DNA from: Mesorhabditis belari
Taxonomy: Eukaryota > Nematoda > Chromadorea > Rhabditida > Rhabditidae
DNA length: 64,000 nucleotides
Direction: 5' to 3'
Assembly (NCBI GenBank): GCA_958450365.1
Contig: CAUEEP010000045.1
Span: 1 to 64,000, forward strand
Positions 19,897 to 57,830 of this stretch are shown here, piece after piece. The notes below the pieces were generated by a model. That model ran no database searches. It was not told the origin of the DNA and was given only the letters and a program-made list of their open reading frames with translations. Position 1 is the stretch's first letter. Each line of letters opens with the position of its first letter. The position numbers were made by a program, and so were the translations under genes.

Positions 19897-22800
19897 TTAC
19901 AAATATCGAAGAATTGGGAGAAGGAGAGCGATGAAAGTGGTGAGAAGATGGGCTGATTGGGGATCGGAGCTCTCCTCGGGTTGCTCGGTCGAATCGATAT
20001 CTTGCTCGGGTTGCATTGGCTGAAATTCAAAAGTTTGCATACAATACAATGCAATTTGCCTATAATACAATGCAATTTGCATATAATACAATGCAATTTG
20101 CATACAATACCATACAATTTGCATACATGCAGTACTGGACAATGCAATATGATATTTGAAAAACGATCGTCACTTTCGCGCGTCTGTAACCCCCTTGTCT
20201 TTGAGTTTAAACTTTTAGTGTTATACATTTTCTGAAAGCTCTTTTCAAGGGCTACACAATGGCAATATTAATATTTAGAAATACGGTAAAGACAAGGGAG
20301 TTACAGACGTGCGAAAGTGACGATCGTTTTTCAAACATGATATTTCATTGTCCAGTAGTGTATACTTAAAATAAGATTCTGGAATTTAAAAACCTGTGTT
20401 TGCCTGTGTGTGGATTGTTTAAAAAGAAGATATTGTTTAGATTCTAGCTTTAAGATCAACGTTGATAGCACAAAAGTCAGATTCGAATGGGAGACAGAAT
20501 GGGTAGAACGATTTATGAACCTGTTGAGAATGTAAGTAAGGCAAGTGCGTTTTGACAACGCTGCACAGTTGAAACTAGGACAGATCAAAAAATCGTGCAC
20601 CGTCGGGACTCGAACCCGCGACTTTTCGCTTGCCGGCCGACTGTGATAACCATTAGACCACAATGCACTTGATCTCCCTTACTCTAGAGGGACTTAACTC
20701 CGCTCCCTTTTCGGTCCGTTTGCCGTTTGTCCATTTTTCATTTTATTCTATGATTTACTATATTAGAAGTTTTCTTTCTTTCTTTGTCTTCTTATATACC
20801 TCTTAACTCCGCCCCTTTTTCATCTTATATGTCTTCTTATGTACTCCTTAACTCCGCCCTTTTTCTGCTTATATGTCTTCTTATATACCCCTTAGCCCCG
20901 CCACTTTTTCCTCTTATATGTCTTCTTATATACCCCTTAGCCCCGCCCCTTTTTCTTCTTAGATGTCTTTTTATATTAACAATGCAGAGCGGGGTCGTTG
21001 AAGCGATAATTGATCAAAAGGATATAGCCGTTTCCCAGAGAACGAGGGCTTTGGCCGCCATGGCCGACTGGCTAAGAGCTCTGGATCTTAGTCGGGAGGT
21101 CAATGGTTCAATCCCGCCAGCTAGAATATTGATTCTTTTTTCCCTACATTTTGAGCTTAGGGTTTGTACTTGTGCATTCTTTGTACCACATTATTCGTCT
21201 AAATAATGTGGTACAATCTGTAATGTATTTTAACTTGTTTACAAGAGTACAATTGAAAAGCACCGAAGAGACTAATCTACGTCTAAATCCAATGCTAAAT
21301 TTCCACTTCAATCGTGAAACTGAAAAACCTAAAGCACTTCAAAAGAAAATTATTGAGTTATTGAAACAAAATTGAACTTAAATACCGGAGGCTGAGTGAA
21401 GGCGTCATCGTTCTCTTCAATTTCCGATGTTTCCTTTGATTTTGGTGCAGCAGTTGTTGGGGTGAGAGGCTGAAACTCGAAAAAAAGAGTTACCAACAAA
21501 ATCTTGGTAAACAAAATCCTGGTAAACAAAATTCTGGTAAACAAAATGTTCACTCAAAAACGAAAAAATGTAGACTTTGCAAGTTCACTCTTTTTTAGCT
21601 AAAGCTTTTTTAGCTTTTTAGCTTTTAGCTAAAAGCTTTGGCTTCGATATCAAACGCACCTTGTCGTCTTGTGGTGAAGAGGTTTCGTCTTGGGGTTCCT
21701 GAAGCAAAATGAATCATTTTATGGATTTACTCTAGCGATTCTAGACTGAATATCCTAGTCTAGGTTGAGTACCGTAATCCAGACAGCCAAGACTGAATAC
21801 TCTAATCTAGACTGAATACCCTATACTAGACTAAATACCGTAATCTAGCTATTCTAGATTGAACATCCTATTCTAGATTGAATACCGTAATCCAGACGGT
21901 CTAGACTGAATACTCTAATCTAGACTGATTTCACTTGCTTAATACTAGTTAAATTGATTTTTATTAGCTTTTGATTCATGTATTGAATTCTACAAACTAG
22001 ACTTGTAAGGAAAATATCTATTGGTCCTTTTTTGCCGTTGATAATTAAAGGTTTTTCGTGTTTTTATCGGCACCAACCATTTGATTTTGTCTATTTTGAC
22101 CATCATTCGATGCAGAATAAAATTGCGCGTCGAATGATATCAAAATTGACTTAAAGTCTAATATCAATGCCAAGTTATGAGGCAAAAGCCTAAACCGCGC
22201 CCATTATGGAAGGGACTTAATCTTTTGCTTCATAACTTTGCATGGATATTATATTTTGAGTTGATTTTGGTATCATTCGACGCGCAATTTGATTCTGTAT
22301 CGAATGCTTGTCAAAATAGTTAAAATCGAAGGGTTGCTATTGAGAAAAACCCGAAAAACCTTAAATTGAAGGCAAATGGCAAAAGGACCGACAAATGTTT
22401 ACAAGTCTACTACAAACCTCAGCATTGCAGGTGGCCCCAGTGAATCCCTCATTGCACACACAGCGACCGCACTCACATTTCCCGTGTCCAGAGCAAACCA
22501 GCTAAATTGTTGGAGTGATCTTTGAGTCTTGAAAGTTCTATGATATCAAATTAACAAATATTCTATCAATCTATTAGGTGTGTTCTATAGGTTTGTGCAA
22601 ACTGCAAACATGTCTTTTCTGGCACTAGATTCTTTTCGGCATCTACTTTCAGCGATTCAATACTGCTAGAAAATGGAAACTTGGTTGCGCCAAGAAAGAT
22701 GTTTTTATGTAAAGCAGAAAGTAGCCGTCTAGAATCATTTGGTTACATAAAATATCGACATTCTTGTGCAAGGAGACTCTACTAGCTAGCTATCAACTAG

Positions 22801-25800
22801 CTATCAACTAACTATCAACTAGCTATCAGCTAGCTATCAACTAGCTATCAGCTAGCTATCAACTAGCTAGCAACTAGCTATCAACAACTAAATTTCTCTA
22901 CTCTTTAAACCCTATTCGGATTCTTGATCACATAGCCGCTGATCCTCAAACAAGGCGCTGAAATTCATTGAATAGGTTCTCTCATTTCTCACAGTGCCCT
23001 CCATGCATGTGATCATCTGTGTGGTGCACGAGCAATCGCCTCTCGTCCATCCGTCTTCGCATTCACACTTTCCACACTCGCAAACACCATGACCGAAGCA
23101 TGTCTAACACGACAAAAGGTCAGTTTTGTGTCATGAAACGCAAAAAACTCAATACCAAAATCTAAGAGCTTGATCAGTTAACTCTTATATTGGCCGATCA
23201 GTCTTTAGACACTTTTTTTATAAATCTGTTTATAAATGAAAAGTTCACCGGTTGACCTACGGTTTGCTTTAAATAGAAAATGTTTATTGTACATTTTTCG
23301 ATCTTTTTACGCTAATCTAGATCTGTTTCCAAGAAAATTTGCGCAAAAAACTCAAACTCAAAACGCAAAAAACTTACGTAAAATTAAATGATGATATAAA
23401 GGAATTGGTTAAACAAATTGTTCTGAGAATTTGGCTATAAGACTAACTTTTTGCGCTCTTTCTTTTTTCTATTGACACCAGAATCGGTTTCTTTGGATGA
23501 AAGTGTCTAAATCGCGTAATCGAGTCGTCGCTCTTTTTGATTAGACTCTTTTTGACCACCGTTCGTGACTTTTTGACCAACAAAAGTTCAGAAACTCTTA
23601 AAATTTCAATGATCTTTTATAGAAAAATATCAGATCTTTCTAATAAAGCAAACCGTAGATCAATAGGTAAATTGGTTACTTCTAAATACCTTTTTTAGGG
23701 TCTAAAGACTTATTGACCAACCTAATAACTTACAGCAAGTTGAAAGTTTACCGAAGTTTACCGTTTGTGGCGAATCAAGTTTGCCGGGTTCGATTTTTAC
23801 AGAGTTTACAGAGTTTACCAGGTTTTACAGCAGCTTTCAAACTATCTAGTTTGAAGCTAAGCTGTTTTTTCAAGCAGTGCCACTACAAAGCACTACAAAG
23901 CACTACAAAGCAAGAGACCAGAAAAAGCAATTGTCAGTTGTCAGCTTTCAGCTCAATTCTAGTTTTTGGTTGCTCAAGCTCACCTGATTGTTGGGTCCAC
24001 CTCGGGGACAATCCGTGTTATCACAAGAACAGAATTTGCCGGTTGTCTAAACAAAATCATTTTTGAGATCTACAAAGAATACAAAGAAAGAATTGTCACT
24101 TCAATTTATGAAACAAAATCACTTCAATTTATGAAACTGAGAAGAAGGTTTTGAAAGCTTGAAAGCTTGAAAACAAGAGCAGATTTTGAAACTTGCCGCT
24201 GGATTATCACAAGCGCATTGACCACATTTGCATTGGCCGTGTCCTCCGCAAACTGGGGCTCCAGGTTTTCTAAAATGCTGATTTATTAGATTTTGCATTG
24301 TTATAATTATGAAATCCTTGTGAGTAATCTAATTTAACAGAAACAGAATCAGAAACTGGATCAGAAACAGAATCAGAAACAGAATCAGAAACTGGATCAG
24401 AAACTGGATCAGAAACTGGATCAGAAACAGAATCAAAAACAGAATTTCCACTTACTCCCGACACTTGTTTGTCAACTCGGCATCAGTTGAGACTCCGTAG
24501 AGAGATAATGGACACTAAAATCAAGAAATCTTATAAACTTGTCTTCTTTAACTTAATCAGTTGATTAATCAGTTGATTTCATCTAGTGGATTTCATCTAG
24601 TTCATTCAATTATTCTTTTACTAACATCACAATTGTGTCCTCCTCGTCCAGGTTGACACTCGCATTGGCCACAGATGAGATTTCCGTGTTGATAGCAAAG
24701 AGGCGAGTTTTTCTCCTGAAAGTGCATAGATTGCGATGGGTTTGATCTTTCATTTGACATTGCTAATCTTCTCTTTTGCTAGTCTTCTCTTTTGCTAATC
24801 TTTTGAGTATCCAACTTACAATTTGATGCAATCTCTCGCATTCACAACCGCAAAGTGGAGACACATAGAGAGCTCCAATCGATCGAGCTCCATAAGCGCC
24901 AACTGTGATCGGGATTGAGCCTCGGTCCGAGCATTTTGTCAATTTCACCTGAAACTTTTTGTTGATTTTGATCAAACAAATGTCCTATTATTTTAAAATT
25001 TATATGTTACGTCGATTTTGAAACCTTCAGAATAGTGTCTATTCACTATTCTAACAGAATAGCGTTTACATTTTTGCGAGAGATCCCATTTTTGCATTAA
25101 AATCACTAAATTACTAAACAAATTCTAGTTTTTGCACAAGTTCCTTTAAAAATCAAGAAAAAGATGCATTTCTTTTGTCATATTTTTGATAAACTATTGT
25201 TTGAAATTTGATTAATAAATAAAAAAGGCATAATTTCGATAGTTTTGATGATAAACCTTCCGTTAAGGTACTAAAGTGCTGAACAAAACTATTAGGTACA
25301 TGCATAAGAAATGCGGATTTCAACATTTTCATAAATTTCCAACGATAGAAACATTCATCGATATCCTGAAATCGATGAATGTTATAAACTATTTGAAAGT
25401 TGTAAATCTCCTCTACAAAATAGGCTAAAACGTGTTTCAATTCATCGAAGCATTGAAGAAATTTCGAGGACGAAATGCGAGTGACCAAAAAAGGGCACTT
25501 TTTGACCGCCCCTTTTGCCATTAACAATCCAACTCTTAGTGTTCGGCTGTTCAATTAAAATAGTTTTTCTACCAATCAATAGAGAAAGACTTGACGCATC
25601 TAATGATACCAAGAATATTTCAATTCAACAGCCTAACACCAAGAAATTTGAGCTCAAAGTTGGAGGTGACCAAAAAAAGGAATCGAGTCACTTTAGGGAC
25701 AAGTTTAGTGTGGTCAAAATAGAGTTAACTTCCCAAAATTGAAGATTTAAGAAGAAGGGATAACTATATATCAATTCATTAAAAAGTCTAACGGAACATT

Positions 25801-28800
25801 TACATTTACAGAAATTTAGATAGAGCGTAAGTTCAAAACCCTCAAAATTGTCAAAAAACGGCTTTTCCACAAAAAGAAAAATTTATTGTAAAAACAAAGC
25901 TTTCCCATGAAATGATCCTAACTCTTAATCACTTTGAATGATATTTTGAATGATTTGGCGCTCATTTTCCACTATATAGTCAAAACCGAACCCTTGTGAA
26001 AGTTTTGGGAAGCTTTTTGGGGAGCTAACTCTATTTTGACCACACTAAACTTGTCCCTAAAGTGACTCGATTCCTTTTTTGGTCACTCGCATTTCGGCCT
26101 CGAAATTTCTTCAATGCTTCGATCAATTGAAACACGTTTTAGCCTATTTTATAGAGGAGATTTACAACCTTCAAATAGTTTATAACATTCATCGATATCA
26201 GGTTTCTATCGTTGGAAATTTATGAAAGTGTTGAAATCCACATTTCTTATGCATGTACCTAATAGAATTCTTTTGATTTTGCTAGATTTGGTCAACATAA
26301 TTTAATAAAAATCATTGTGAAATGAGTTTTCTAGGTAAAAAGAAATTTCAAAGATTTCACAAAGTCTCGAAATCTCGAGAACCGCTTATCAGAACCTATC
26401 GATGTGGGGTCGGAAAATGTAGCTGAAGATGAGATCTAGTGGGGGATTTGAGTGTTGAGCTTCTGGGAAAAGCTTGGGAACTGTAAAATGGTCATTAACT
26501 CGGCTCGGCCGGGGGGAGGAGAGGCCGGGAGCAGGAGGGCACTACATTTAGAGAAAATACAGAATACCATATTTTCTCTAATAGAGCGTCTAATCTAATC
26601 ATCCTGAGCATTACCTAAATTGCTCGAAATCTCGAAAAGCGCTTATCAGAAGCTATCGATGTGGGGTCGGAAAATGTAGCTGACGATGAGATCTAGTGGG
26701 GGATTAGAGTGTTGAGCTTCTGTGAAAACTTGGAAACGATAAAATAGTCATAAACTCGGCTCGGCGCACTACTATTTCACTGACCACTGCAGTCACCGCA
26801 AGCACCGTTCCATCAGGGACCTTGTCGCATTTCTTGCCTTCAACTTTCTTTCTGAAAATAGTCTTTTGAGAAAAACACAGATTGAATTAGTGAAGATAAA
26901 AGAAACAATTCAATTTCTGAAGATAAATCAACAAACCCGTGACAATCGATGATAAAAGTCACATCAACGCCAGTGTTCGAGAAGTTCGAGGTCATGATTT
27001 GAAAGTCCTTGATCTAAAATCAGCTGGATAAGCTGGATAAGCTGGATAAGCTGGATAAATCAAATATTTTACCAAAATATAGCTTTTTTGAAAAAAATGC
27101 TTACTTGTGCCGGTCCAGAGTCCTTGTGGAAGAACTTGAACTCGACTTTCATCGTCTCATCTAAATTCACCAGCTAATACGTTTTACTAAAAGATCCTCT
27201 CTGCTACTTTCTAACGAATTTTCTTTCTATTACTTTCTTTTGAGTGCTTTCTAACTAATTTTCTTGCATTTTCTTGCATTTTTTTTCAAATTTCCTTTGA
27301 GTTATCTGTTTGTGTTAGTGCTCTTTCTAGAGCTCTTTCTGTTCTAGCGGCATCTCATAACCGATCGGAACTCTTTCAACTCTCAACAAGCCAATCCATC
27401 AAATGAGATCGTAAAAGCCAAAGAGCCAATCTAGGTGCACAAATGTTCGACGAAAGTGTATAAATTTGAATCTTAAATGATAAACTACAAGAAAATCAAT
27501 GGAGCTCAAGGATCTTAAGTTTTCGTTATAAAATAATATTCGTATTCGCTCCAACAACCTCCAACAACAATTAACAAAAGTTGACAACTTACTTAACAAG
27601 TTTACAAGCTTACTTACAAGGGAACCACAGATACTAGCGGATGCCGATTGCCGATTAGATTAGATAAACATATGCATGAAGTAAATAAACAATAATATAA
27701 TTCCAAAATGGCTAATGGTCCAAAATTGTTCCAAAAGTTCCAAGAAAGAGTCAAACTCCACTTTGTAACTGAACGCACTACCACTACACCAATGAATCCC
27801 TTTGTATTCATATCGTTGCGGAGAGAGAAACCCCATTGTCGTCTATATTTTGCCAAAGATTCAAAACACTATAGCTACCGTAATCTTGGAGCTTTGCAGT
27901 TGAATTTTTGATATGTTGTTCCCCATAGTCGACTCTATCTACCCACTAATTTTGGAGGCAATCGGCATTCATAATGTGGTTTTCTTGTTAGCAATAAGTT
28001 ACATACCGTATTTTCCCTAATAGTAGTGCACCCTGAGCGTCGCCTAAATTGCTCGAAATCTCGAGAACCGCTTATCAGAACCTATCGATGTGGGATCGGA
28101 AAATGTAGCTGACGATGAGATCTAGTGGGGGATTAGAGTGTCGAGCTTCTGCAAAAGCTTGGAAATCGTAAAATAGTCATCAACTCGGCTCACCGGGGTA
28201 CACTACTATTAGAGAAAATACGGCATTTTGTATCATATTTTAAACGTTCCACTAACCTTCTTTGATTTTCACTTCGACTTGCTGTGGGGACACTTGCACT
28301 GGGCTGTTCGTTCGTGGATCGATTTGTTGAAGAGGCAATGACTAAACATGAAAAATTGATAGTACCCGCCAAAATTGATAGTACCAGCCAAGAAAAACGT
28401 ACTCACTTTAAACCAGAGTAAACTAGATGACAAAATAACTCGATTGCTTATTTTGGTATGTAAATTTTCGCTATTTTGATCTTTTCAACTTTGTCGTAGT
28501 GAGTTTTTCAACTTGCCCACGCCCAAACGATCCGGGTTCGACTCCCGGCTATGCCGTGACTTTTGCTTTTTATAAATGAAATATTAGATGCACAACTGCA
28601 TAGAATTCTAAGCCTAAGAAACTAAAAATCATGTAAATCAGCTCATAGGGAGCTGAAAACTAGCGCATACAGACAGACGAACGAACAGACACTACTCTTT
28701 TATATATAGTAGATTGATCTGAGACTGGACTGTTTCTAGGAAAAGCCAGGACTGTTTCCTTAGCCTGGAACAGTCGACAAAACTGATCTAGACTAAACCT

Positions 28801-31800
28801 AACTAGACTAACTAATTCTTTGCTTAGTTTGGCTTGATTTTGGCCCACGGGGACTCTGCGAACTCTGCGAGAACTCTGCGAACTGAGAACGCACGGACGG
28901 ACAGACAGACCGACACTTCTTTTTTATATATAGTAGATTTAACGCCAGGATTTGAGTGAGATTCAGCCACTCGTGGCACTTGTGTTGATGTAGATAAAAA
29001 ATCAAACACTTCATTTAAAGCATGAGTCCTGAATTCACACAACAAAGAAAACAAAACTCATACGACGACAGACGGACGGACAAACACTGTTCTTTTATAT
29101 ATAGTAGATATCTTCACGGCCTTCTCAAGTATAATAGTTTGTAATTAAATATTTTTATCTTTATCCTGGTTTTATTTAACCACAAAAAGCAATGAATAAT
29201 TCAATTATGAACTTATGAATGAAGGAAATCTTCTTCCTTTTCTACTTCTTTCCTTTCACTCTTCCTCTCTTCTTTTCCTTTTCTACTTCTTTCCTTTCCC
29301 TTTTCTACTTCTTTCCTTTCCCTCTCTTCTTTCCCTTCCCTCTTCTTTCCTTTCCCTCTTCTTTCCCTTCCCTCTTCTTTCCTTTCCCTCTCTTCTTTCC
29401 CTTCCCTCTTCTTTCCCTTCCCTCTTCTTTCCTTTCCCTCTCTTCTTTCCCTTCCCTCTTCTTTCCTTTCCCTCTCTTCTTTCCTTTCCCTCTCTTCTTT
29501 CCCTTCCCTCTTCTTTCCCTTCCCTCTTCTTTCCTTTCCCTCTCTTCTTTCCCTTCCCTCTTCTTTCCCTTCCCTCTTCTTTCCTTTCCCTCTCTTCTTT
29601 CCCTTCCCTCTTCTTTCCCTTCCCTCTTCTTTCCCTTCCCTCTTCTTTCCTTTCCCTCTCTTCTTTCCTTTCCCTCTTCTTTCCCTTCCCTCTTCTTTCC
29701 TTTCCCTCTCTTCTTTCCCTTCCCTCTTCTTTCCTTTCCCTCTCTTCTTTCCCTTCCCTCTTCTTTCCCTTCCCTCTTCTTTCCCTTCCCTCTTCTTTCC
29801 TTTCCCTCTCTTCTTTCCTTTCCCTCTCTTCTTTCCCTTCCCTCTTCTTTCCCTTCCCTCTTCTTTCCTTTCCCTCTTCTTTCCCTTCCCTCTTCTTTCC
29901 CTTCCCTCTTCTTTCCCTTCCCTCTTCTTTCCTTTCCCTCTCTTCTTTCCTTTCCCTCTTCTTTCCCTTCCCTCTTCTTTCCTTTCCCTCTCTTCTTTCC
30001 CTTCCCTCTTCTTTCCCTTCCCTCTTCTTTCCCTTCCCTCTTCTTTCCTTTCCCTCTCTTCTTTCCTTTCCCTCTCTTCTTTCCCTTCCCTCTTCTTTCC
30101 TTTCCCTCTTCTTTCCCTTCCCTCTTCTTTCCTTTCCCTCTTCTTTCCCTTCCCTCTTCTTTCCTTTCCCTCTCTTCTTTCCTTTCCCTCTTCTTTCCCT
30201 TCCCTCTTCTTTCCTTTCCCTCTCTTCTTTCCCTTCCCTCTTCTTTCCTTTCCCTCTCTTCTTTCCCTTCCCTCTTCTTTCCCTTCCCTCTTCTTTCCCT
30301 TCCCTCTTCTTTCCTTTCCCTCTCTTCTTTCCTTTCCCTCTCTTCTTTCCCTTCCCTCTTCTTTCCTTTCCCTCTCTTCTTTCCCTTCCCTCTTCTTTCC
30401 TTTCCCTCTTCTTTCCCTTCCCTCTTCTTTCCTTTCCCTCTTCTTTCCCTTCCCTCTTCTTTCCTTTCCCTCTTCTTTCCCTTCCCTCTTCTTTCCCTTC
30501 CCTCTTCTTTCCCTTCCCTCTTCTTTCCTTTCCCTCTCTTCTTTCCTTTCCCTCTCTTCTTTCCCTTCCCTCTTCTTTCCCTTCCCTCTTCTTTCCTTTC
30601 CCTCTCTTCTTTCCCTTCCCTCTTCTTTCCCTTCCCTCTTCTTTCCCTTCCCTCTTCTTTCCTTTCCCTCTCTTCTTTCCTTTCCCTCTCTTCTTTCCCT
30701 TCCCTCTTCTTTCCTTTCCCTCTCTTCTTTCCCTTCCCTCTTCTTTCCCTTCCCTCTTCTTTCCTTTCCCTCTCTTCTTTCCTTTCCCTCTCTTCTTTCC
30801 CTTCCCTCTTCTTTCCCTTCCCTCTTCTTTCCTTTCCCTCTCTTCTTTCCTTTCCCTCTCTTCTTTCCCTTCCCTCTTCTTTCCCTTCCCTCTTCTTTCC
30901 CTTCCCTCTTCTTTCCTTTCCCTCTTCTTTCCCTTCCCTCTTCTTTCCTTTCCCTCTCTTCTTTCCCTTCCCTCTTCTTTCCCTTCCCTCTTCTTTCCTT
31001 TCCCTCTCTTCTTTCCCTTCCCTCTTCTTTCCCTTCCCTCTTCTTTCCTTTCCCTCTCTTCTTTCCCTTCCCTCTTCTTTCCCTTCCCTCTTCTTTCCTT
31101 TCCCTCTCTTCTTTCCCTTCCCTCTTCTTTCCCTTCCCTCTTCTTTCCCTTTCCCTCTCTTCTTTCCTTTCCCTCTCTTCTTTCCCTTCCCTCTTCTTTC
31201 CCTTCCCTCTTCTTTCCCTTCCCTCTTCTTTCCTTTCCCTCTTCTTTCCCTTCCCTCTTCTTTCCTTTCCCTCTCTTCTTTCCCTTCCCTCTTCTTTCCC
31301 TTCCCTCTTCTTTCCTTTCCCTCTCTTCTTTCCCTTCCCTCTTCTTTCCCTTCCCTCTTCTTTCCTTTCCCTCTCTTCTTTCCCTTCCCTCTTCTTTCCC
31401 TTCCCTCTTCTTTCCTTTCCCTCTCTTCTTTCCTTTCCCTCTCTTCTTTCCCTTCCCTCTTCTTTCCCTTCCCTCTTCTTTCCCTTCCCTCTTCTTTCCT
31501 TTCCCTCTTCTTTCCCTTCCCTCTTCTTTCCTTTCCCTCTCTTCTTTCCCTTCCCTCTTCTTTCCCTTCCCTCTTCTTTCCTTTCCCTCTCTTCTTTCCT
31601 TTCCCTCTCTTCTTTCCCTTCCCTCTTCTTTCCCTTCCCTCTTCTTTCCCTTCCCTCTTCTTTCCTTTCCCTCTTCTTTCCCTTCCCTCTTCTTTCCTTT
31701 CCCTCTCTTCTTTCCCTTCCCTCTTCTTTCCCTTCCCTCTTCTTTCCTTTCCCTCTCTTCTTTCCTTTCCCTCTCTTCTTTCCCTTCCCTCTTCTTTCCC

Positions 31801-34800
31801 TTCCCTCTTCTTTCCTTTCCCTCTCTTCTTTTCTACTTCTTACCCATCTTTTTCCTTTTTTAAAATAAAAATTTAACAAAGAAATAAGGATCACGAGATT
31901 TGAACCCTCGACCTTCCGCCTGAAGAGGCAGAGGCTCTATCTCTCGGCTATAGGTCTTGTTTTACCATCTAGAAAGAAGGCAGAAGAAGAAAAAAAAGAA
32001 GTAACGGTGCAGAAAGAAGGTGGAAGAAGAAAAGAAAGAAAATTCACATACCCGATGATCAACTTTCATCTCTGTAACTGGTGAATAGACATATTGTTGA
32101 TTGCAGACATCGGCCGTCAATTTCGATTTCAATTGGCATCTTGATGAGAGTTTGCTGTGCTGAAATGAAAACTTTGAAACTATTCTTTAATCGTTTCTTT
32201 AAACAAATTGAAACCCAAAATTTACACCAAACAAAATACCCTTTCAAACAAATTTTAACCTTTAGTTTTTTTTTAATTTTATCCCTTTACCCATGGGTAC
32301 CTGAAATTCCAAAATGCAACATGTGGTCTTGTGGAAAAGTGGAGAAGAGAAATGGACTGGGATCTCGACCCATCACACACATTTTATGACATTTGAAAAA
32401 GTGGCTGTGGACTGGGGTGAATGGGAGCGAGCTCTAATCAAGAATTTCGACTCTAATCAAGAAAGAGCTGGAGATTTTAAGTAATTAGGTTAAATTCTAA
32501 GAGCTCTGAGCAATGGCTTTGAGCAGTAGCTCTGAGCAGTAGCTTTGAGCAGTAGCTCTGAGCAGTAGCTTTGAGCAGTAGCTCTGAGCAGTAGCTTTGA
32601 GCAGTAGCTCTGAGCAATAGCTCTGAAAGGCCTGTAAGACTCAAAATTGAAAATTAGGTAGTAAACAGATTGATAGTAAACAGTTTTTGGTATTCTGTAA
32701 GGCTTTTTGTTGCTCAGTTCAGTTAGTTTTAGTCCGGTTATCTTTTTCTTCAGCTCTTGTCTAGAAAAGTGGCTGTTCAATTGGCTGTTCAATTGGCTGT
32801 CCGATTGGCTGTTCAATTGGCTGTTCAATTGGCTGTTCAATTGGCTGTTCAATTCCCTGTTCAATTCCCTGTTCAATTGGCTGAATTGGCTGTTCAAATG
32901 GCTGAATTGGCTGTTCAATTGGCTGTATTGGCTGCTCAATTGGCTGTCCAATTGGCTGTTCAATTCCCTGCTCAATTGGCTGTTCAATTCCCTGTTCAAT
33001 GCCCTGTTCAATTGTTTCGCATGCTAATCTTGTTTGAATCAACTCAAAGTTCGATTTCAAATCAGCTAGAGTTAGGCTTATTAAGGGGTGTTAAAGAGGC
33101 AATTTCTTAGGTTTTGCTATAAGTTACTGAAAAGATTTATGCTGAGTCATCTCTAGATGCACCTCCAGGAGTTACTTGCATCAAGGGGACTTTACAAAAC
33201 CCTTCCAACTCTTCGACCCTTCCCAAGCACTAATTCATTCTCTCTAATGTCCCAAGCATTAACTCATTCTCTCTAATGTCCCCCGTTCAACCACTAACTA
33301 CTATTGTTCTCCCAGCAAAATTTATCACTGTTTACATTTTCATTGTGCCATTTTTTAGCCATTTTTTTTGATCCTTTCCTCCATCAGCTTTCTCCTGTTG
33401 TGTAATGAGTGCCCTTAATCCCCTAATGAGTCCGAAAAATTTCTTGTTCTTGTCTCTTTTTTTTGATCAATTTTCAAACGTGATCAGCGATTAATCTTTT
33501 CGCGAACTGATAGAGAAATTGAGATTAGCGGGCAGAGATCTTGCAAGAGTCGAATTGGAGCAAGTGGAATTGAAGCAAGTGGAATTGAAAATGTTGACCA
33601 TGCCAAGGAAAGGAAAACATGCAAAATAGAGAGTTGGGGAAATGCTGGTAAAACCGAGAGCTTAAAAAGCAAGAGATTTGGTGCGTGAAAGTGATATTTT
33701 TTGGCTATTTTGTTCGATGAATCGTTTAGTTTCAGTTACTAGACAAAATTTCAGTAATATTCGTTGCCACAAGAGTTTTGGTACTAAAGAACTGGTACTA
33801 ACAGATCTTAGATATTCGCGGATTGGTACACAAAGTACCATAACTCTTAAGATTTGATACTGTTTAGTAAATTTGTGGTCAAATATCAGACGATCAAGTA
33901 CCAGACGAGTCTAATCTCTGTTGAGGACATACCGGGAATTTGCGGGAAATGGGAAATTATCGAGAAATGTTAGGCTAACGAGAAATGTTAGGGCAAATTG
34001 AAAGATATTCAGCTAATGAATATCAGCAAATTGAAAGATATTCAGCCAATGAAATCGATGCCAATGAAATCATTAGCTGAATCATTAGCTGAATATCTTT
34101 CAGTTTGCGTTTTCAATCGGGATCAAGGAATTTGAATCCGTAGTCAGAAATAGATCTTGAAATAGAGCAGTTTTTTAAAGAAAAGCTGCTCTATTTCATC
34201 CGGTTTAACTACCCAAGCTGTCGTCTGAAGTTAGCTGTCAGCCAAGACAAAAATGGCTTTGTCGTGAATGTATTAAATGCTTACATGTTTAGGTAATTGG
34301 ATGATACTGTTTTGGAGATTGGATGATATTGATTTGGAGATACTAGATCTAACTTGAAGATACTAGAATTGCTTTAGTAGCTTTGGAGATACTGTTTTGG
34401 AGATTGAATGATACTGATTTGGAGATACTAGATCCTGCAGAAGCGCTATAGTAGCTTATCAATGCACCAAATCTCTTACTCTTTCAAGGAAACATCCAAA
34501 ATCAATCTCTTGCTTAAAACTTAAAACTTAAAACTTGCTTAACTGGCAAAATGGCAACAAATTTATCAAAAAGCTTTGGAAAGGCTTTGCTGGATGCTTC
34601 TGGATGCTTTCAACCTGTAGCTTTCCAAAATATTTCCATTGACTTCTCAAAAGCCATGGACTCGTCGCTGAATCGGTGATCAGCTCAAAAGGAAATGACT
34701 CACTAAGGTGGTTAAAAGGAAAATGATTAGAGAACTAGACTTGCTTATCGCTGAATCGTTAATGAAGTTTGGGGAAGACGGCAAGAGTTAGACACGGAAT

Positions 34801-35848
34801 ACCTGAGACCGAAAGTCGTTGTAGGGTAAAGCAAGGATCTAATCTCATACTAGGATATCGATAAGCAAGCCATTCGTCGTTTGAAATTCATCACATGCTT
34901 TGTACAACTAGGCAGTAGCTACAACTAAGCAGTAGCTACAACTAGGCAGTAGCTACAACTAGGCAGTAGTTACAACTAGGCAGTAGTTACAACTAGGCAG
35001 TAGCTACAACTAGGCAGTAGATACAACTAGGCAGTAGATACAACTAGGCAGTAGCTACAACTAGGCAGTAGTTACAACTAAGCAGTAACTACAACTAAGC
35101 AGTAGCTACAACTAGGCAGTAGCTACAACTAGGCAGTAGCTACAACTAGGCAGTAGATACAACTAGGCAGTAGATACAACTAGGCAGTAACTATAACTAG
35201 GCAGTAGTTACAACTTTGTGCTCAGCAACACACTCTCTTTCTGATGCACTCAATTCTTGCATCAGTTTACTACCTTGCATCAGTCTGCTACCAGTTAGTG
35301 CTCTAGAAAGAAGCGTTTGCATTTTGAGCACAAAGTACACCAAAGAACAAGTTTATAGTGCATTATCAAAAGCCAAATTCGATTGTTTTCAACTTACAGG
35401 ATCTCGACACCAGCCACAATCTGGATGCTGCTTAATGCACTGCCCGCATGATGAAGCACCCTCAGCACTTCGGCATTTTGCCTCGATATCCTCAGCAAGA
35501 GCTAAATATTTGATATTTGATTAAGATATTTCATTTCGGAATCTAATAAGCTTATGCTTCTTCTACCATAGAGTTAAACTGATGCTTCTTCTCGTTTTTT
35601 ATTTACAATTTATGCTTAAAAACTTACTATAACTTAAAAACTTACTCTAAAGCTGCAACAATGAGCCTGGAAAGGTTTTTAACCGGTTAAAGATTGAACA
35701 AACTTGTGAAACTTGCAAATATAAATCTTTTTCTAAGCATAATATGCTTTTTTTAATCTTACTGAAGATTTTGCTGAAGAAAAGCGAATTTTTGAAACTA
35801 ACCAATTGGTAGAACGAGCAACAACAGTGGTATTAACCTTCGAATCAT
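19897..35848 (-). CDS. Integrin-beta-like protein lacking the beta-I domain, probably GPI-anchored
   Basis: Hand-built 17-exon model. Exons: 35848-35803, 35501-35398, 32159-32052, 28341-28257, 27160-27105, 27013-26937, 26851-26785, 24948-24820, 24715-24626, 24514-24456, 24269-24197, 24046-23984, 23103-22993, 22501-22418, 21698-21660, 21469-21386, 20019-19897. Total 1398 nt (465 aa), all phases consistent. Order: signal peptide (IRRLIPLLLLVLPIALA), PSI (CGQCIKQHPDCGWC, residues ~34-47), hybrid domain (~87-220), four Cys-rich I-EGF modules (~218-384, e.g. CSGHGKCECGRCVC), acidic Thr/Pro stalk, hydrophobic C-terminus (LLTTFIALLLPILRYL). In integrin beta subunits a beta-I domain of ~240 aa sits inside the hybrid domain. 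Here the two hybrid halves join directly at residues 133/134 across a 91-bp intron. There is no integrin transmembrane helix or NPxY tail. Intron 11 uses a GC donor (gcaagt). Role unknown; a surface or extracellular partner is likely. Confidence 0.88.
20137..20360. repeat. Palindromic MITE in the last intron of the integrin-like gene
   Basis: The left end ctggacaatgcaatatgata and tgaaaaacgatcgtcacttt are matched by inverted copies at the right (aaagtgacgatcgtttttca, catgatatttcattgtccag). About 225 bp with a short central spacer. It lies between exons 16 and 17. Confidence 0.8.
20596..20666 (-). tRNA. tRNA-like gene, probably a pseudogene
   Basis: Read on the minus strand, the 7-bp acceptor stem is complete (GCATTGT with ACGGTGC, two G-U pairs). 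The D-arm (GGTCTAATGGTTA) and T-arm (CGGGTTCGAGTCCCG) are good, and the total is about 71 nt. The anticodon arm is poor: only three pairs form, and the loop CCGGCAA has C instead of the invariant T before a would-be GGC anticodon. It lies in an intron of the integrin-like gene. It may be a decayed tRNA or a SINE head. Confidence 0.5.
20795..20965. repeat. Imperfect ~35-40-bp tandem repeat (cccctttttc...cttatatg)
   Basis: Four to five diverged copies of a unit reading 'ccttaactccgcccctttttc' then 'ttcttatatgtcttcttatat', in the intron between exons 16 and 17 of the integrin-like gene. The plus-strand frame across it is not a gene. Confidence 0.75.
21056..21126 (+). pseudogene. tRNA-like sequence (Leu/Ser-like), degenerate
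   Basis: Contains ggccgactggctaagagct (class II-like D-arm), ctctggatcttagtcgggag (imperfect anticodon arm), and ggttcaatcccgcc (T-arm). The stems are incomplete and the acceptor ends do not pair well. It lies in the same intron as the tRNA-like sequence at 20596-20666, on the opposite strand. Confidence 0.4.
22020..22395. repeat. Palindromic element with the cgtcgaatgatacc core
   Basis: ttggtccttttttgccgtt and its approximate inverse (ttgccttttg-type; here caaatggcaaaaggaccga) bound an imperfect palindrome. Inner inverted blocks include 'tattttgacca', 'attcgacgcgcaatt' and 'cttcataactt'. The motif around 'cgtcgaatgatac' also occurs inside the foldbacks at 17905-18885 and 42113-42406. It lies in the intron before exon 15 of the integrin-like gene. 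Confidence 0.75.
22785..22885. repeat. Intronic ~11-12-bp tandem repeat (ctagctatcaa)
   Basis: Eight or nine copies of 'ctagctatcaa', the start of an array just downstream (in transcription) of exon 13 of the integrin-like gene. Confidence 0.85.
24335..24445. repeat. Intronic 12-bp tandem repeat (gatcagaaacag / aatcagaaactg)
   Basis: About nine 12-bp units ending 11 bp before the donor of exon 10 of the integrin-like gene. The minus-strand frame is open through it (VSDPVSDS repeats), but splice phase excludes it from the protein. Confidence 0.8.
25280..26275. repeat. ~1-kb foldback element with a second element nested inside
   Basis: Left blocks 'aggtacatgcataagaaatg', 'atttccaacgatagaaac' and 'cctattttg' type recur inverted at 26100-26275 (catttcttatgcatgtacct). 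An inner pair, 'gtcactttagggacaagttt' and its inverse, lies at about 25690-25720 and 26040-26075. The left arm is interrupted at about 25500-25665 by sequence ('ccccttttgcca...caccaagaaatttgagct') that belongs to a second repeat family seen four times at 59260-59810. It lies in intron 7 of the integrin-like gene. Confidence 0.8.
26385..26780. mobile_element. Two adjacent family D MITE copies, one abutting an exon
   Basis: Copies at about 26361-26562 and 26568-26780 share 'ctcgaaatctcgagaaccgc', 'tatcgatgtggggtcggaaa' and 'gatgagatctagtgggggat' with the copy at 28005-28224. The second copy's right terminus, gcgcactactattt, ends within a few bases of the exon 7 donor (gtcagt on the minus strand, 26784-26779). 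Confidence 0.85.
28005..28224. mobile_element. Family D MITE, 220 bp, complete
   Basis: Ends accgtattttccctaatagt and the inverse (actattagagaaaatacgg), followed internally by 'agtgcacc'/'ggtacact'. The interior matches the two copies at 26.4-26.8 kb. It lies in intron 4 of the integrin-like gene, 33 bp downstream (in transcription) of exon 4. Confidence 0.9.
28505..28562 (+). pseudogene. 3' half of a tRNA-like sequence
   Basis: Contains a perfect T-arm (ccgggttcgactcccgg) preceded by a variable-region-like 'acgat', but no matching acceptor strand or D-arm upstream. A relic of a tRNA or a tRNA-derived repeat. Confidence 0.4.
28655..29112 (-). repeat. Three copies of a Helitron-like terminus (minus orientation)
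   Basis: At about 28670-28715, 28885-28942 and 29062-29112 a run of acagacggacgg/cgaacagac type is followed by ctttt(t)atatatagtagat. This is the inverse of the terminus at 5757-5800. The copies are spaced about 175-220 bp apart with unrelated sequence between them, as if short elements inserted next to one another. Confidence 0.5.
29240..31832. repeat. 2.6-kb homopyrimidine minisatellite (CCCTTCCCTCTTCTTT units)
   Basis: About 2.6 kb of almost pure C/T on the plus strand. It is built from two alternating units, 'cccttccctcttctt' (about 15 bp) and 'cctttccctctcttctt' (about 17 bp), arranged in a higher-order pattern. Only the first ~60 bp and the last ~30 bp contain scattered A. Both strands are open in several frames simply because the sequence lacks stops. 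It fills most of the 3.7-kb intron 3 of the integrin-like gene. It is not coding. Confidence 0.97.
31887..31966 (-). pseudogene. tRNA-like sequence (Lys-like loop), degenerate
   Basis: On the minus strand: a D-arm-like tagccgagagatagagc, an anticodon arm 'tctgcctcttcaggcgga' with an 8-nt rather than 7-nt loop, and a T-arm 'cgagggttcaaatctcg'. The acceptor ends do not pair. The block gcggaaggtcgagggttcaa is shared exactly with 39473-39545, so both belong to one repeat family. Confidence 0.45.
32505..32640. repeat. 12-bp tandem repeat (gagcagtagctt/gagcagtagctc)
   Basis: About eleven units alternating 'tttgagcagtag' and 'ctctgagcagtag'-type, in the intron between exons 2 and 3 of the integrin-like gene. 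Confidence 0.85.
32768..33012. repeat. 12-bp minisatellite (gctgttcaattg)
   Basis: About twenty units of 'ttggctgttcaa' with variants 'tccctgttcaat' and 'ttggctgaattg'. All frames are open because the unit is a multiple of three and has no stop. Intron 2 of the integrin-like gene. Confidence 0.9.
34905..35215. repeat. 17-bp minisatellite (aactaggcagtagctac)
   Basis: About eighteen tandem 17-bp units with single-base variants (agttac, agatac, taagc). Intron 2 of the integrin-like gene, about 180 bp downstream of exon 2 in transcription. Confidence 0.92.
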
Positions 35849-56262: not shown

Positions 56263-56899
56263 TTGGATTGGTGAATTGAAAACTACCGGCTATTTCGCGG
56301 GACTCGCAGATAAAAAAACAAAAGCATTGAACCAGCTGAAAGGGGGTTTGTTTTCTCCAACATTTCCTCTAGCTATTGCGAAAAAATAATGCTTCCAGCT
56401 TTTTATTTTTTGGTATTTTTCTTCACTTCTTCTATTGCACTCGACAATCTGCCACCGGGACATATTCGTCATGTCATGCTTCATGAGTTCCTACAAGAGC
56501 ACAGTGCAGGCTTGGCAGCTGCTAATATTAAAAAGATATATGGGGAGGACTCACCTTCCGAAAGAACGTGTCGAGTATGGTTTGCTAAGTTTCGATCTGG
56601 GGACAAATCTTTGAATGATGCAGTGGGCCGTGGAGCGGCACCCCAACTGGATAATTCCAAATTACTCGAGCTCATTACCAACGACCATCGGGCATCATCA
56701 CGTGAATTGGGAGAAGAGTTAGGGGTTGATCATGCTACAGTGTTGAATCACCTTCATAACCTCGGATTTAAATCGAAACTTGGGACTTGGATGCCCTATG
56801 TTCACTGACCCTCACTGACCCTATGTTCACTGACCCTCACTGACCCTATGTTCACTGACACTGCCAAATGGAACTTATTTGGAATGAAAAGCGAAACTA

Positions 56900-57830
56900 C
56901 AGGGTGCGGCCAAAATATCCGGCGGAACGTACTTTTTGCCATAATACTGCGAAAACTCATTTATTCACGCTTCTTTTTATGTTTATGCATTTTTTTATTC
57001 TTTTTTATATGTTTCAATTATTTTTTTGATAAATAAGTGAAACAAAGACTTAAGAAATGCAAAGTTTTGTTGCGGCGTTTGAAGGGTGGCACGCATCGGA
57101 GGGTTCTCTGGTCGGATGAAGCGCCATTCACAATTGAGCAGGAATTCAACAAGCAAAATAATCGGATTTTAACAAAAGATGTTGCCACGGCAAATTCTCA
57201 GGGAAGAATTGTCCAAAAATCGGCTCATCCAAAATCGTTGATGGTTTGGGCCGGGGTGACCGCTGATGGAAAAACACCTCTTGTTTTTGTGCAGCCAGGT
57301 GTGAAAATTGATCAAAATTACTACGAAAAAGAAATTTTGATGAGGCATATGAAGCCTTGGGCTGATAATCACTTTTCTGGAGCACCTTGGATCTTTCAAC
57401 AAGATTCTGCACCAGCACATCGTGCAAAAAAGACCATGGAGTGGTTTGCCAAGCAAAACGTGGATTTCATTACCCCGGAAGAATGGCCTGCAAATTCACC
57501 TGGCATCAATCCTATGGATTTCGCCATATGGGGAATCTTGAAGGCAAAGGTCTCATCAGCTCCACATGCTAATTTGGATGATCTGAAAGCCACCCTTATC
57601 AAGGAATGGGCAAAAATCCCCGTTGAGACTCTCCGTGCCGCGGTCGACGATGTGCCGAAGCGACTTAGGGCTTGCATGAAGGAAAAAGGAGGAAACTTTG
57701 AGATTTAACTGTTTTTATTTTGTTATTTGGACTGTTGTTGTTATTTTCAGTAAAATTCTATAAAGCTTTTCTGCTAATTTTCTGAAGACCAGTCGGTCTT
57801 TTCATCGCCGGATATTTTGGCCGCACCCTG
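56900..57830 (+). mobile_element. DD37D (maT-like) transposon, 931 bp, nearly intact
   Basis: A perfect 25-26-bp inverted repeat starts cagggtgcggccaaaatatc. TA duplications lie at 56898-56899 and 57831-57832. It encodes most of a transposase (57037-57708) but is about 300 bp shorter than full-length relatives, because the N-terminal HTH part is missing. It inserted into an older mariner. The perfect ends suggest recent movement. Confidence 0.93.
57037..57708 (+). CDS. DD37D transposase, catalytic domain (N-terminally truncated)
   Basis: A 223-residue open frame covering the RNase-H-like catalytic domain. First Asp in RVLWSDEAPF, second in FQQDSAPAHRAKK, third in INPMDFAIWGIL. I count 37 residues between the second and third Asp, the DD37D spacing of maT-type elements. 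The C-terminus 'VPKRLRACMKEKGG' is typical. Upstream in the element (56900-57036) there is no room for the two N-terminal helix-turn-helix motifs, so the protein should not bind its terminal repeats by itself. The frame has no stops or frameshifts. Confidence 0.88.
   Translation: MKQRLKKCKVLLRRLKGGTHRRVLWSDEAPFTIEQEFNKQNNRILTKDVATANSQGRIVQKSAHPKSLMVWAGVTADGKTPLVFVQPGVKIDQNYYEKEILMRHMKPWADNHFSGAPWIFQQDSAPAHRAKKTMEWFAKQNVDFITPEEWPANSPGINPMDFAIWGILKAKVSSAPHANLDDLKATLIKEWAKIPVETLRAAVDDVPKRLRACMKEKGGNFEI

Follow-up and report, generated by a model that had tools for sequence, protein, structure and literature searches.

A conserved nematode integrin-beta paralogue without a betaI domain, predicted to form a membrane-anchored PSI-hybrid-EGF stalk

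What can an integrin beta chain still do once both the ligand-binding betaI domain and the signaling tail are missing? This question is raised by a gene on the minus strand (35848-19897) of a 64,000-nucleotide (nt) stretch of the nematode Mesorhabditis belari (positions 1 to 64,000 of contig CAUEEP010000045.1, assembly GCA_958450365.1), hereafter the window. The gene is real, conserved and integrin-derived, and its public annotation is that of an EGF-like protein. We posit, giving this reading about an even chance, that it represents a conserved nematode integrin-beta paralogue predicted to form a glycosylphosphatidylinositol (GPI)-anchored PSI-hybrid-EGF stalk, which likely acts as an alpha-independent adhesion co-receptor.

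Gene structure and module content

A scripted rebuild of the gene joins 17 exons into 1398 nt coding for 465 amino acids (aa), with the frame open throughout; 15 of the 16 introns are of the GT-AG type and the remaining one, after exon 11, is GC-AG. The public M. belari protein P0001, whose record is labelled 'EGF-like domain', is 100% identical to the window protein over all 465 aa. A sequence-only reading of the window had proposed these 17 in-phase exons and had the two halves of the hybrid domain joined at residues 133/134 across a 91-bp intron (27014-27104); the rebuild, together with P0001, bears out both proposals and places that intron in phase 0.

Exon 1 (35803..35848; this and all following coordinates of the gene are on the minus strand) supplies the start codon and, judged by eye from the hydrophobic N-terminus MIRRLIPLLLLVLPIALA, a putative signal peptide. 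The PSI domain begins in exon 2 (35398..35501) and ends in exon 3 (32052..32159), where the hybrid domain starts. Pfam recovers it as PSI_integrin (PF17205, 34.9 bits, residues 24-70), and its cysteines at positions 25, 34, 37, 44, 47, 58 and 69, all invariant or nearly so among the homologues, make up the seven that the consulted part of PMC3531407 gives for the integrin PSI, identifying it as an integrin-beta PSI domain. The first half of the hybrid domain, which aligns with integrin beta-3, occupies exon 4 (28257..28341; QVSPQQVEVKIKE) and closes in exon 5 (27105..27160), whose last residue, 133, stands where the betaI domain would begin. Intron 5 (27014..27104) is thus the site of the missing domain, and the second hybrid half starts immediately past it in exon 6 (26937..27013), continues in exon 7 (26785..26851) and ends in exon 8 (24820..24948), which also opens I-EGF1, the module borders here being read by eye. 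By the rebuild and Pfam, the I-EGF repeats then follow in order: I-EGF1 in exon 9 (24626..24715), the two parts of I-EGF2 in exons 10 (24456..24514) and 11 (24197..24269, followed by the GC donor), I-EGF2/I-EGF3 in exon 12 (23984..24046), I-EGF3 and the start of I-EGF4 in exon 13 (22993..23103), and I-EGF4 in exon 14 (22418..22501). An acidic stalk is coded by exons 15 (21660..21698) and 16 (21386..21469), the AlphaFold confidence measure, the predicted local distance difference test (pLDDT), being <50 over residues 385-450. Exon 17 (19897..20019) adds the end of the stalk, a small-residue region (SSDPQSA), a hydrophobic C-terminal signal that is GPI-type by composition (LLTTFIALLLPILRYL) and the stop codon.

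The Pfam scan of the window protein detected PSI_integrin, I-EGF_1, EGF_integrin and EGF_2, whereas it returned no Integrin_beta (PF00362) match up to E 1, that is, no betaI domain with its metal ion-dependent adhesion site (MIDAS), and no beta-tail domain (PF07965). In comparisons with solved structures, residues 27-133 align with residues 32-139 of integrin beta-3 and residues 163-382 with its residues 407-625, covering the hybrid domain and four I-EGF repeats; both matching segments are the sequence that flanks the betaI domain. In the betaI slot itself the window protein has 8 residues, as against 238-245 in full-length chains, and at its C-terminus there is no NPxY motif, the protein stopping at the hydrophobic stretch. 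AlphaFold predicts a fold that corresponds to solved integrin beta legs once betaI is passed over, and in this model the two hybrid halves are predicted to reseal into one domain. These results uphold the sequence-only reading in most respects: signal peptide, PSI, both hybrid halves and four I-EGF repeats in order (the latter three kinds of module by Pfam and structure alignment), no betaI domain, no transmembrane segment or NPxY tail, and a hybrid-hybrid junction for which structure prediction, proposed there as a check, gives an integrin leg minus betaI. Its statement that all other extracellular modules are present fails, for the beta-tail domain is missing as well.

An equivalent arrangement is known from the PSI/hybrid/EGF (PHE) fragments of human integrin beta2, 2p26 and 5e6w, which have the same module order with betaI left out; the 2p26 chain, for instance, has 280 residues numbered 1-519. 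These solved structures show that the hybrid domain folds without betaI. We take both to be laboratory constructs, whereas the window gene is a natural gene with the equivalent module order.

Kinship with pat-3 and a nematode family

A search of the M. belari genome for PF00362 (4 pieces), PF07965 (1) and PF08725 (2) leads to a sole locus, on contig C554 at ~4.115-4.119 Mb, that looks like a canonical PAT-3, DLSYSM and NPIY/NPVY included. A missed betaI exon in the window gene can be rejected, as the genome matches to PF00362 occur only at pat-3 and intron 5 measures 91 bp; the genome search went exon by exon over the best candidates only, so that a very short exon could be missed. The window protein shares with PAT-3 and other integrin betas the PSI domain, the split hybrid domain, the four I-EGF repeats and three phase-matched introns around the betaI site; it differs in having no betaI domain or MIDAS, beta-tail, transmembrane helix or NPxY motif, and in ending instead in an acidic stalk and a hydrophobic C-terminus.

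Each of the three introns that flank the lost domain has a pat-3 counterpart of the same phase, two of them lying in the same alignment column and one four columns off. The first, in the first hybrid half, is of phase 1 and in the same column (PQVMKVEIRP-K vs PQQVEVKIKE-D); the second, at the betaI/hybrid border, is of phase 0 and four columns apart (AEK-IIM vs PAQ-IKD); the third, which precedes exon 7, lies two residues past the hybrid cysteine, in phase 2 and in the same column. Therefore, the window gene is an integrin-beta paralogue without everything from inside the exon of the first hybrid half to the intron before the second half, and we infer that a deletion removed this segment. The shared introns may be ancient across integrin beta genes. 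In pat-3 itself (C554:4114500-4122500), the exon after the phase-1 hybrid intron contains a one-base frame break in a T run, which probably stems from a sequencing error rather than a genuine lesion.

The window protein belongs to a family of 19 proteins (P0001-P0019) in which 18 named nematode species are represented, including strongyles, Mesorhabditis, Auanema, Pristionchus, Aphelenchoides, Bursaphelenchus, Dirofilaria and Syphacia, genera which we take to represent nematode clades III, IV and V. A precomputed domain table lists PF00362 for none of the 19, and a scan of 14 members for PF00362, PF07965 and PF08725 gave no match at E <= 0.01. The betaI slot of a 36-row alignment has 4-9 residues in all nine nematode family rows and 4 in all four rows of fish-type betaI-less proteins, vs 238-245 in all 23 full-length rows. 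Among the 18 further nematode matches, several of which are partial models, the hybrid halves are joined in 17, the eighteenth, P0017, having a garbled hybrid region. Since 17 of 18 show this joining, exon 4 of the window gene (28341-28257), which the frame requires and which lies amid the repeats of the 5 kb that separate exon 3 from exon 5, is not a chance reading. The suggestion in the sequence-only reading that betaI-less relatives exist in other nematodes has thus found its answer in this family. Phylogenetic trees unite the nematode family in one clade (support 100/100), whose branch is long, at 1.4 and 1.8 in two of them.

ITGBL1 (P0023, P0024, P0044) likewise has integrin-type EGF repeats, unlike the window protein with no PSI_integrin listed, a weak distinction as the same list misses the PSI domain in some members of the nematode family. 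ITGBL1 has no hybrid domain and more EGF repeats. Taking ITGBL1 to be defined by I-EGF repeats only, with neither PSI nor hybrid domain, the window protein falls outside it, for it has both.

We compared identities between the betaI-less family and PAT-3 in six pairs: M. belari with M. spiculigera, Pristionchus, a filaria and Aphelenchoides (pairs 1-4), then Pristionchus with the filaria and the filaria with Aphelenchoides (pairs 5-6), the filaria being Dirofilaria for the betaI-less family and Loa for PAT-3. In the second hybrid half, identity in pairs 1-6 is 81, 35, 38, 35, 35 and 48% in the family vs 86, 82, 75, 75, 74 and 77% in PAT-3; in I-EGF1 the respective values are 88, 55, 65, 48, 52 and 52% vs 77, 62, 58, 59, 55 and 54%. 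PAT-3 evolves more slowly than the family at PSI, I-EGF2 and I-EGF3 in 6/6 pairs, and the first hybrid half shows the reverse trend between the filaria and Aphelenchoides (58% in the family vs 38% in PAT-3). In our reading, these rates suggest that the hybrid domain was released once there was no betaI for it to work, while I-EGF1 would be about as constrained as in PAT-3.

The C-terminus and the possible role of the stalk

We define a hydrophobic tail by a cut of our own, a 14-residue hydropathy >=1.6 ending within 3 residues of the C-terminus. The window protein reaches a maximum of 2.16, ending 3 residues from its C-terminus, and by the same cut 13 of the 19 family models, window protein included, have a hydrophobic tail without cytoplasmic residues. 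The NPxY strings of some family members fall, in the rows inspected, in the PSI region and not in the tail. By composition, the window protein has the GPI-type C-terminus of the sequence-only reading, and we predict this C-terminus to be a GPI signal.

The Dirofilaria protein P0009 is named 'putative integrin beta-like protein', which fits, and does not prove, membership in the C05D9.3 orthogroup. We place the window gene provisionally in the orthogroup of C05D9.3, presumably an integrin-beta-like gene of C. elegans, and of Brugia Bm1972a; the muscle and GPI evidence for these proteins carries over only if this placement is true, in which case GPI proteomics has probably already seen the family as Bm1972a. 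According to the sections of PMC6742230 used here, Bm1972a is a candidate GPI protein released by phosphatidylinositol-specific phospholipase C (PI-PLC), with 4 unique peptides in the membrane PI-PLC sample only (Table 2 there); it is called the ortholog of C05D9.3, and Murata 2012, a study of C. elegans GPI proteins, is said to contain a matching ortholog. In the corresponding sections of PMC3096668, C05D9.3::GFP is placed in category 7, 'cell membrane (+/- muscle arms)', outside category 2, which is called PAT-3-like, and bears an asterisk for an RNA interference (RNAi) phenotype in Meissner 2009. A GFP fusion may be an unfaithful reporter of a GPI protein. Within those sections neither PMC6742230 (where 'integrin' occurs 0 times) nor PMC3096668 mentions integrin kinship or a missing betaI domain.

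Passages of PMC1538996 hold the A (betaI) domain to be critical for alpha pairing and suggest that other proteins may bind to PSI, hybrid and EGF-1. The same passages describe truncated beta1 paralogues of zebrafish (beta1tr), which share with the window protein the loss of beta-tail domain, transmembrane segment and cytoplasmic tail; as they retain the A domain, they present its mirror case. Because betaI is critical for the pairing, we infer that the window protein forms no heterodimer with an alpha subunit. We posit that a full-length integrin beta would have lost its betaI, beta-tail, transmembrane and cytoplasmic parts. Without betaI there would be no MIDAS, no metal-dependent ligand binding and no usual alpha contact, and without the cytoplasmic tail no recruitment of talin or kindlin. 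The acidic stalk would lift the GPI-anchored PSI-hybrid-EGF unit off the membrane, where the surface of PSI and the I-EGF repeats might bind another surface or matrix protein. The stalk protein would probably stand beside PAT-3 attachments in muscle and may support integrin attachment there. A role as matrix linker, named in the sequence-only reading, is possible.

Several observations weigh against a conserved, GPI-anchored co-receptor of this kind. The PSI_integrin profile reaches E 0.01 in only 4 of the 14 members scanned, though the cysteines are present. The source names of P0011, P0013, P0015 and P0016 mention integrin beta, VWA or INB domain; their listed Pfam domains are without PF00362, and we take the names to reflect integrin-like ends because the betaI slot is empty in each. 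Two homologue searches (57 and 71 matches) returned no match named Caenorhabditis, though Caenorhabditis PAT-3 was found; they likewise returned none named as a clade I nematode, though clade I PAT-3 was found, both absences being weak because these searches find a homologue only if it has five-residue words in common with the query and is of similar length. The hydrophobic tail is missing in six of the 19 models (P0003, P0007, P0015-P0018), two of them (P0007, P0018) being labelled as partial and two more (P0016, P0017) being short, which leaves P0003 and P0015 without such an explanation. The string 'C05D9' occurs 0 times in the main text of Meissner 2009 (PMC2694363). Finally, the tree sets the nematode family apart from nematode PAT-3. 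A constraint that unites them costs 13.5 log units (approximately unbiased test, p-AU 0.0896) with all 36 rows, 10.2 log units (p-AU 0.0692) with 33 rows, without P0049, P0019 and P0027, and 9.8 log units (p-AU 0.0436) with 29 rows, the fish-type rows also being removed. The tree disfavours a nematode-specific split of the family from PAT-3, but the family's branch is long and introns are shared with pat-3.

The best surviving alternative, which we nevertheless consider unlikely, is that the protein regulates PAT-3 in cis, its PSI-hybrid-EGF1 portion packing on the PAT-3 knee and biasing the bent or the extended state. Mould et al. suggest, in the passages cited above, that binders of PSI, hybrid and EGF-1 could hold an integrin in its bent form or tip it towards the unbent one (PMC1538996), and the muscle-membrane location of C05D9.3::GFP and its RNAi-phenotype asterisk (PMC3096668) would agree with such a role if C05D9.3 is the ortholog; the fast divergence of the second hybrid half speaks against it.

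A broader proposal looks beyond nematodes to the teleost 'integrin beta-1-like' proteins P0020, P0021, P0025 and P0029. Like the window protein, these have no betaI domain, joined hybrid halves and no transmembrane part in their models; unlike it, they have lost the hybrid cysteine loop, two list a beta-tail domain and none has a GPI-type tail. Animals would then have a second, alpha-independent kind of integrin beta, a headless leg, carried on a GPI anchor in nematodes and secreted in teleosts. Its hybrid domain would have turned from the betaI lever into a plain spacer, and the leg would support muscle attachment beside classical integrins. We regard this as doubtful, somewhat more so than regulation in cis. 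Less probable again is that nematode and teleost proteins descend from a single ancient betaI-less animal family. In its favour, the betaI slot of the teleost proteins is only 4 residues long and the tree joins them to the nematode clade with support of 79/88. Yet this support falls to 59/72.8 without the long rows, a tree that unites them with vertebrate betas is not rejected either (p-AU 0.257 and 0.397), and the absent hybrid cysteine loop and the two listed beta-tail domains fit a separate loss. The teleost betaI-less proteins probably reflect such a separate loss, and are possibly an independent headless integrin family.

We consider it improbable, even beside the preceding alternatives, that the leg is a dominant-negative or decoy that binds alpha legs or integrin ligands and damps PAT-3 signalling. 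The modules it keeps are those that adjoin the alpha leg in bent integrins, and an antagonist role has been suggested for the zebrafish truncated beta1 paralogues in the cited passages of PMC1538996. Against this, the betaI domain, critical for both alpha pairing and ligand binding, is absent in 14 of the 14 members scanned, and the second hybrid half is weakly constrained (35-48% in the five between-genus pairs vs 74-82% in PAT-3). Two roles that the sequence-only reading had floated accordingly find little favour: a heterodimerisation competitor is unlikely because the A domain needed for pairing (PMC1538996, in part) is gone, and a ligand decoy because no MIDAS is left. A decaying or mis-annotated integrin gene, for which one might cite the loss of most functional parts of the beta chain, is in effect refuted, as the sequence-only reading had held, by the intact frame over 17 exons with its identical public model, the conserved homologues (the hybrid halves are joined in all but one of the 18 other nematode matches), the confinement of PF00362 to pat-3 and, if orthologous, the Brugia peptides (PMC6742230, in part).

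Intron repeats, neighbouring elements and significance

The introns of the gene harbour several further elements. Intron 3 contains, at 29308-31834, a 2,527-bp run of C/T only on the plus strand (A/G only on the minus strand), a minisatellite with periods of 16, 50 and 84 that, given its length, could form triplex DNA. In intron 7, nested inverted repeats with arms of 130, 71 and 66 nt (93-97% complementary) span 25282-26272, perhaps as the remnant of a mobile element. The sole Rfam match, tRNA-like (RF00005, 30.6 bits), lies on the minus strand in intron 16 (20595-20667); ARAGORN called no tRNA, in this interval or otherwise. Elsewhere in the window, two adjoining plus-strand open reading frames (56389-57708; 139 and 223 aa) match the helix-turn-helix (HTH) domain of Mos1 transposase (PF17906, 69.6 bits), and a DDE_3 match (PF13358) of 26.8 bits falls just below the 28.6 cut-off; on these profile matches the pair is a mariner-type transposase in two pieces.

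In a literature search of openly licensed papers (CC0, CC BY, CC BY-SA), made chiefly at the level of titles and abstract openings, we found no published description of a betaI-less or GPI-linked nematode integrin. The family amounts to a natural experiment on integrins, in which the PSI-hybrid-EGF leg was kept across nematodes without the defining head or tail. The faster change of the second hybrid half, and not of I-EGF1, relative to PAT-3 would separate the requirements of the lever from those of the leg. That the leg alone has been kept points to a job of its own, which, if C05D9.3 is the ortholog, can be tested in C. elegans by removing one gene.
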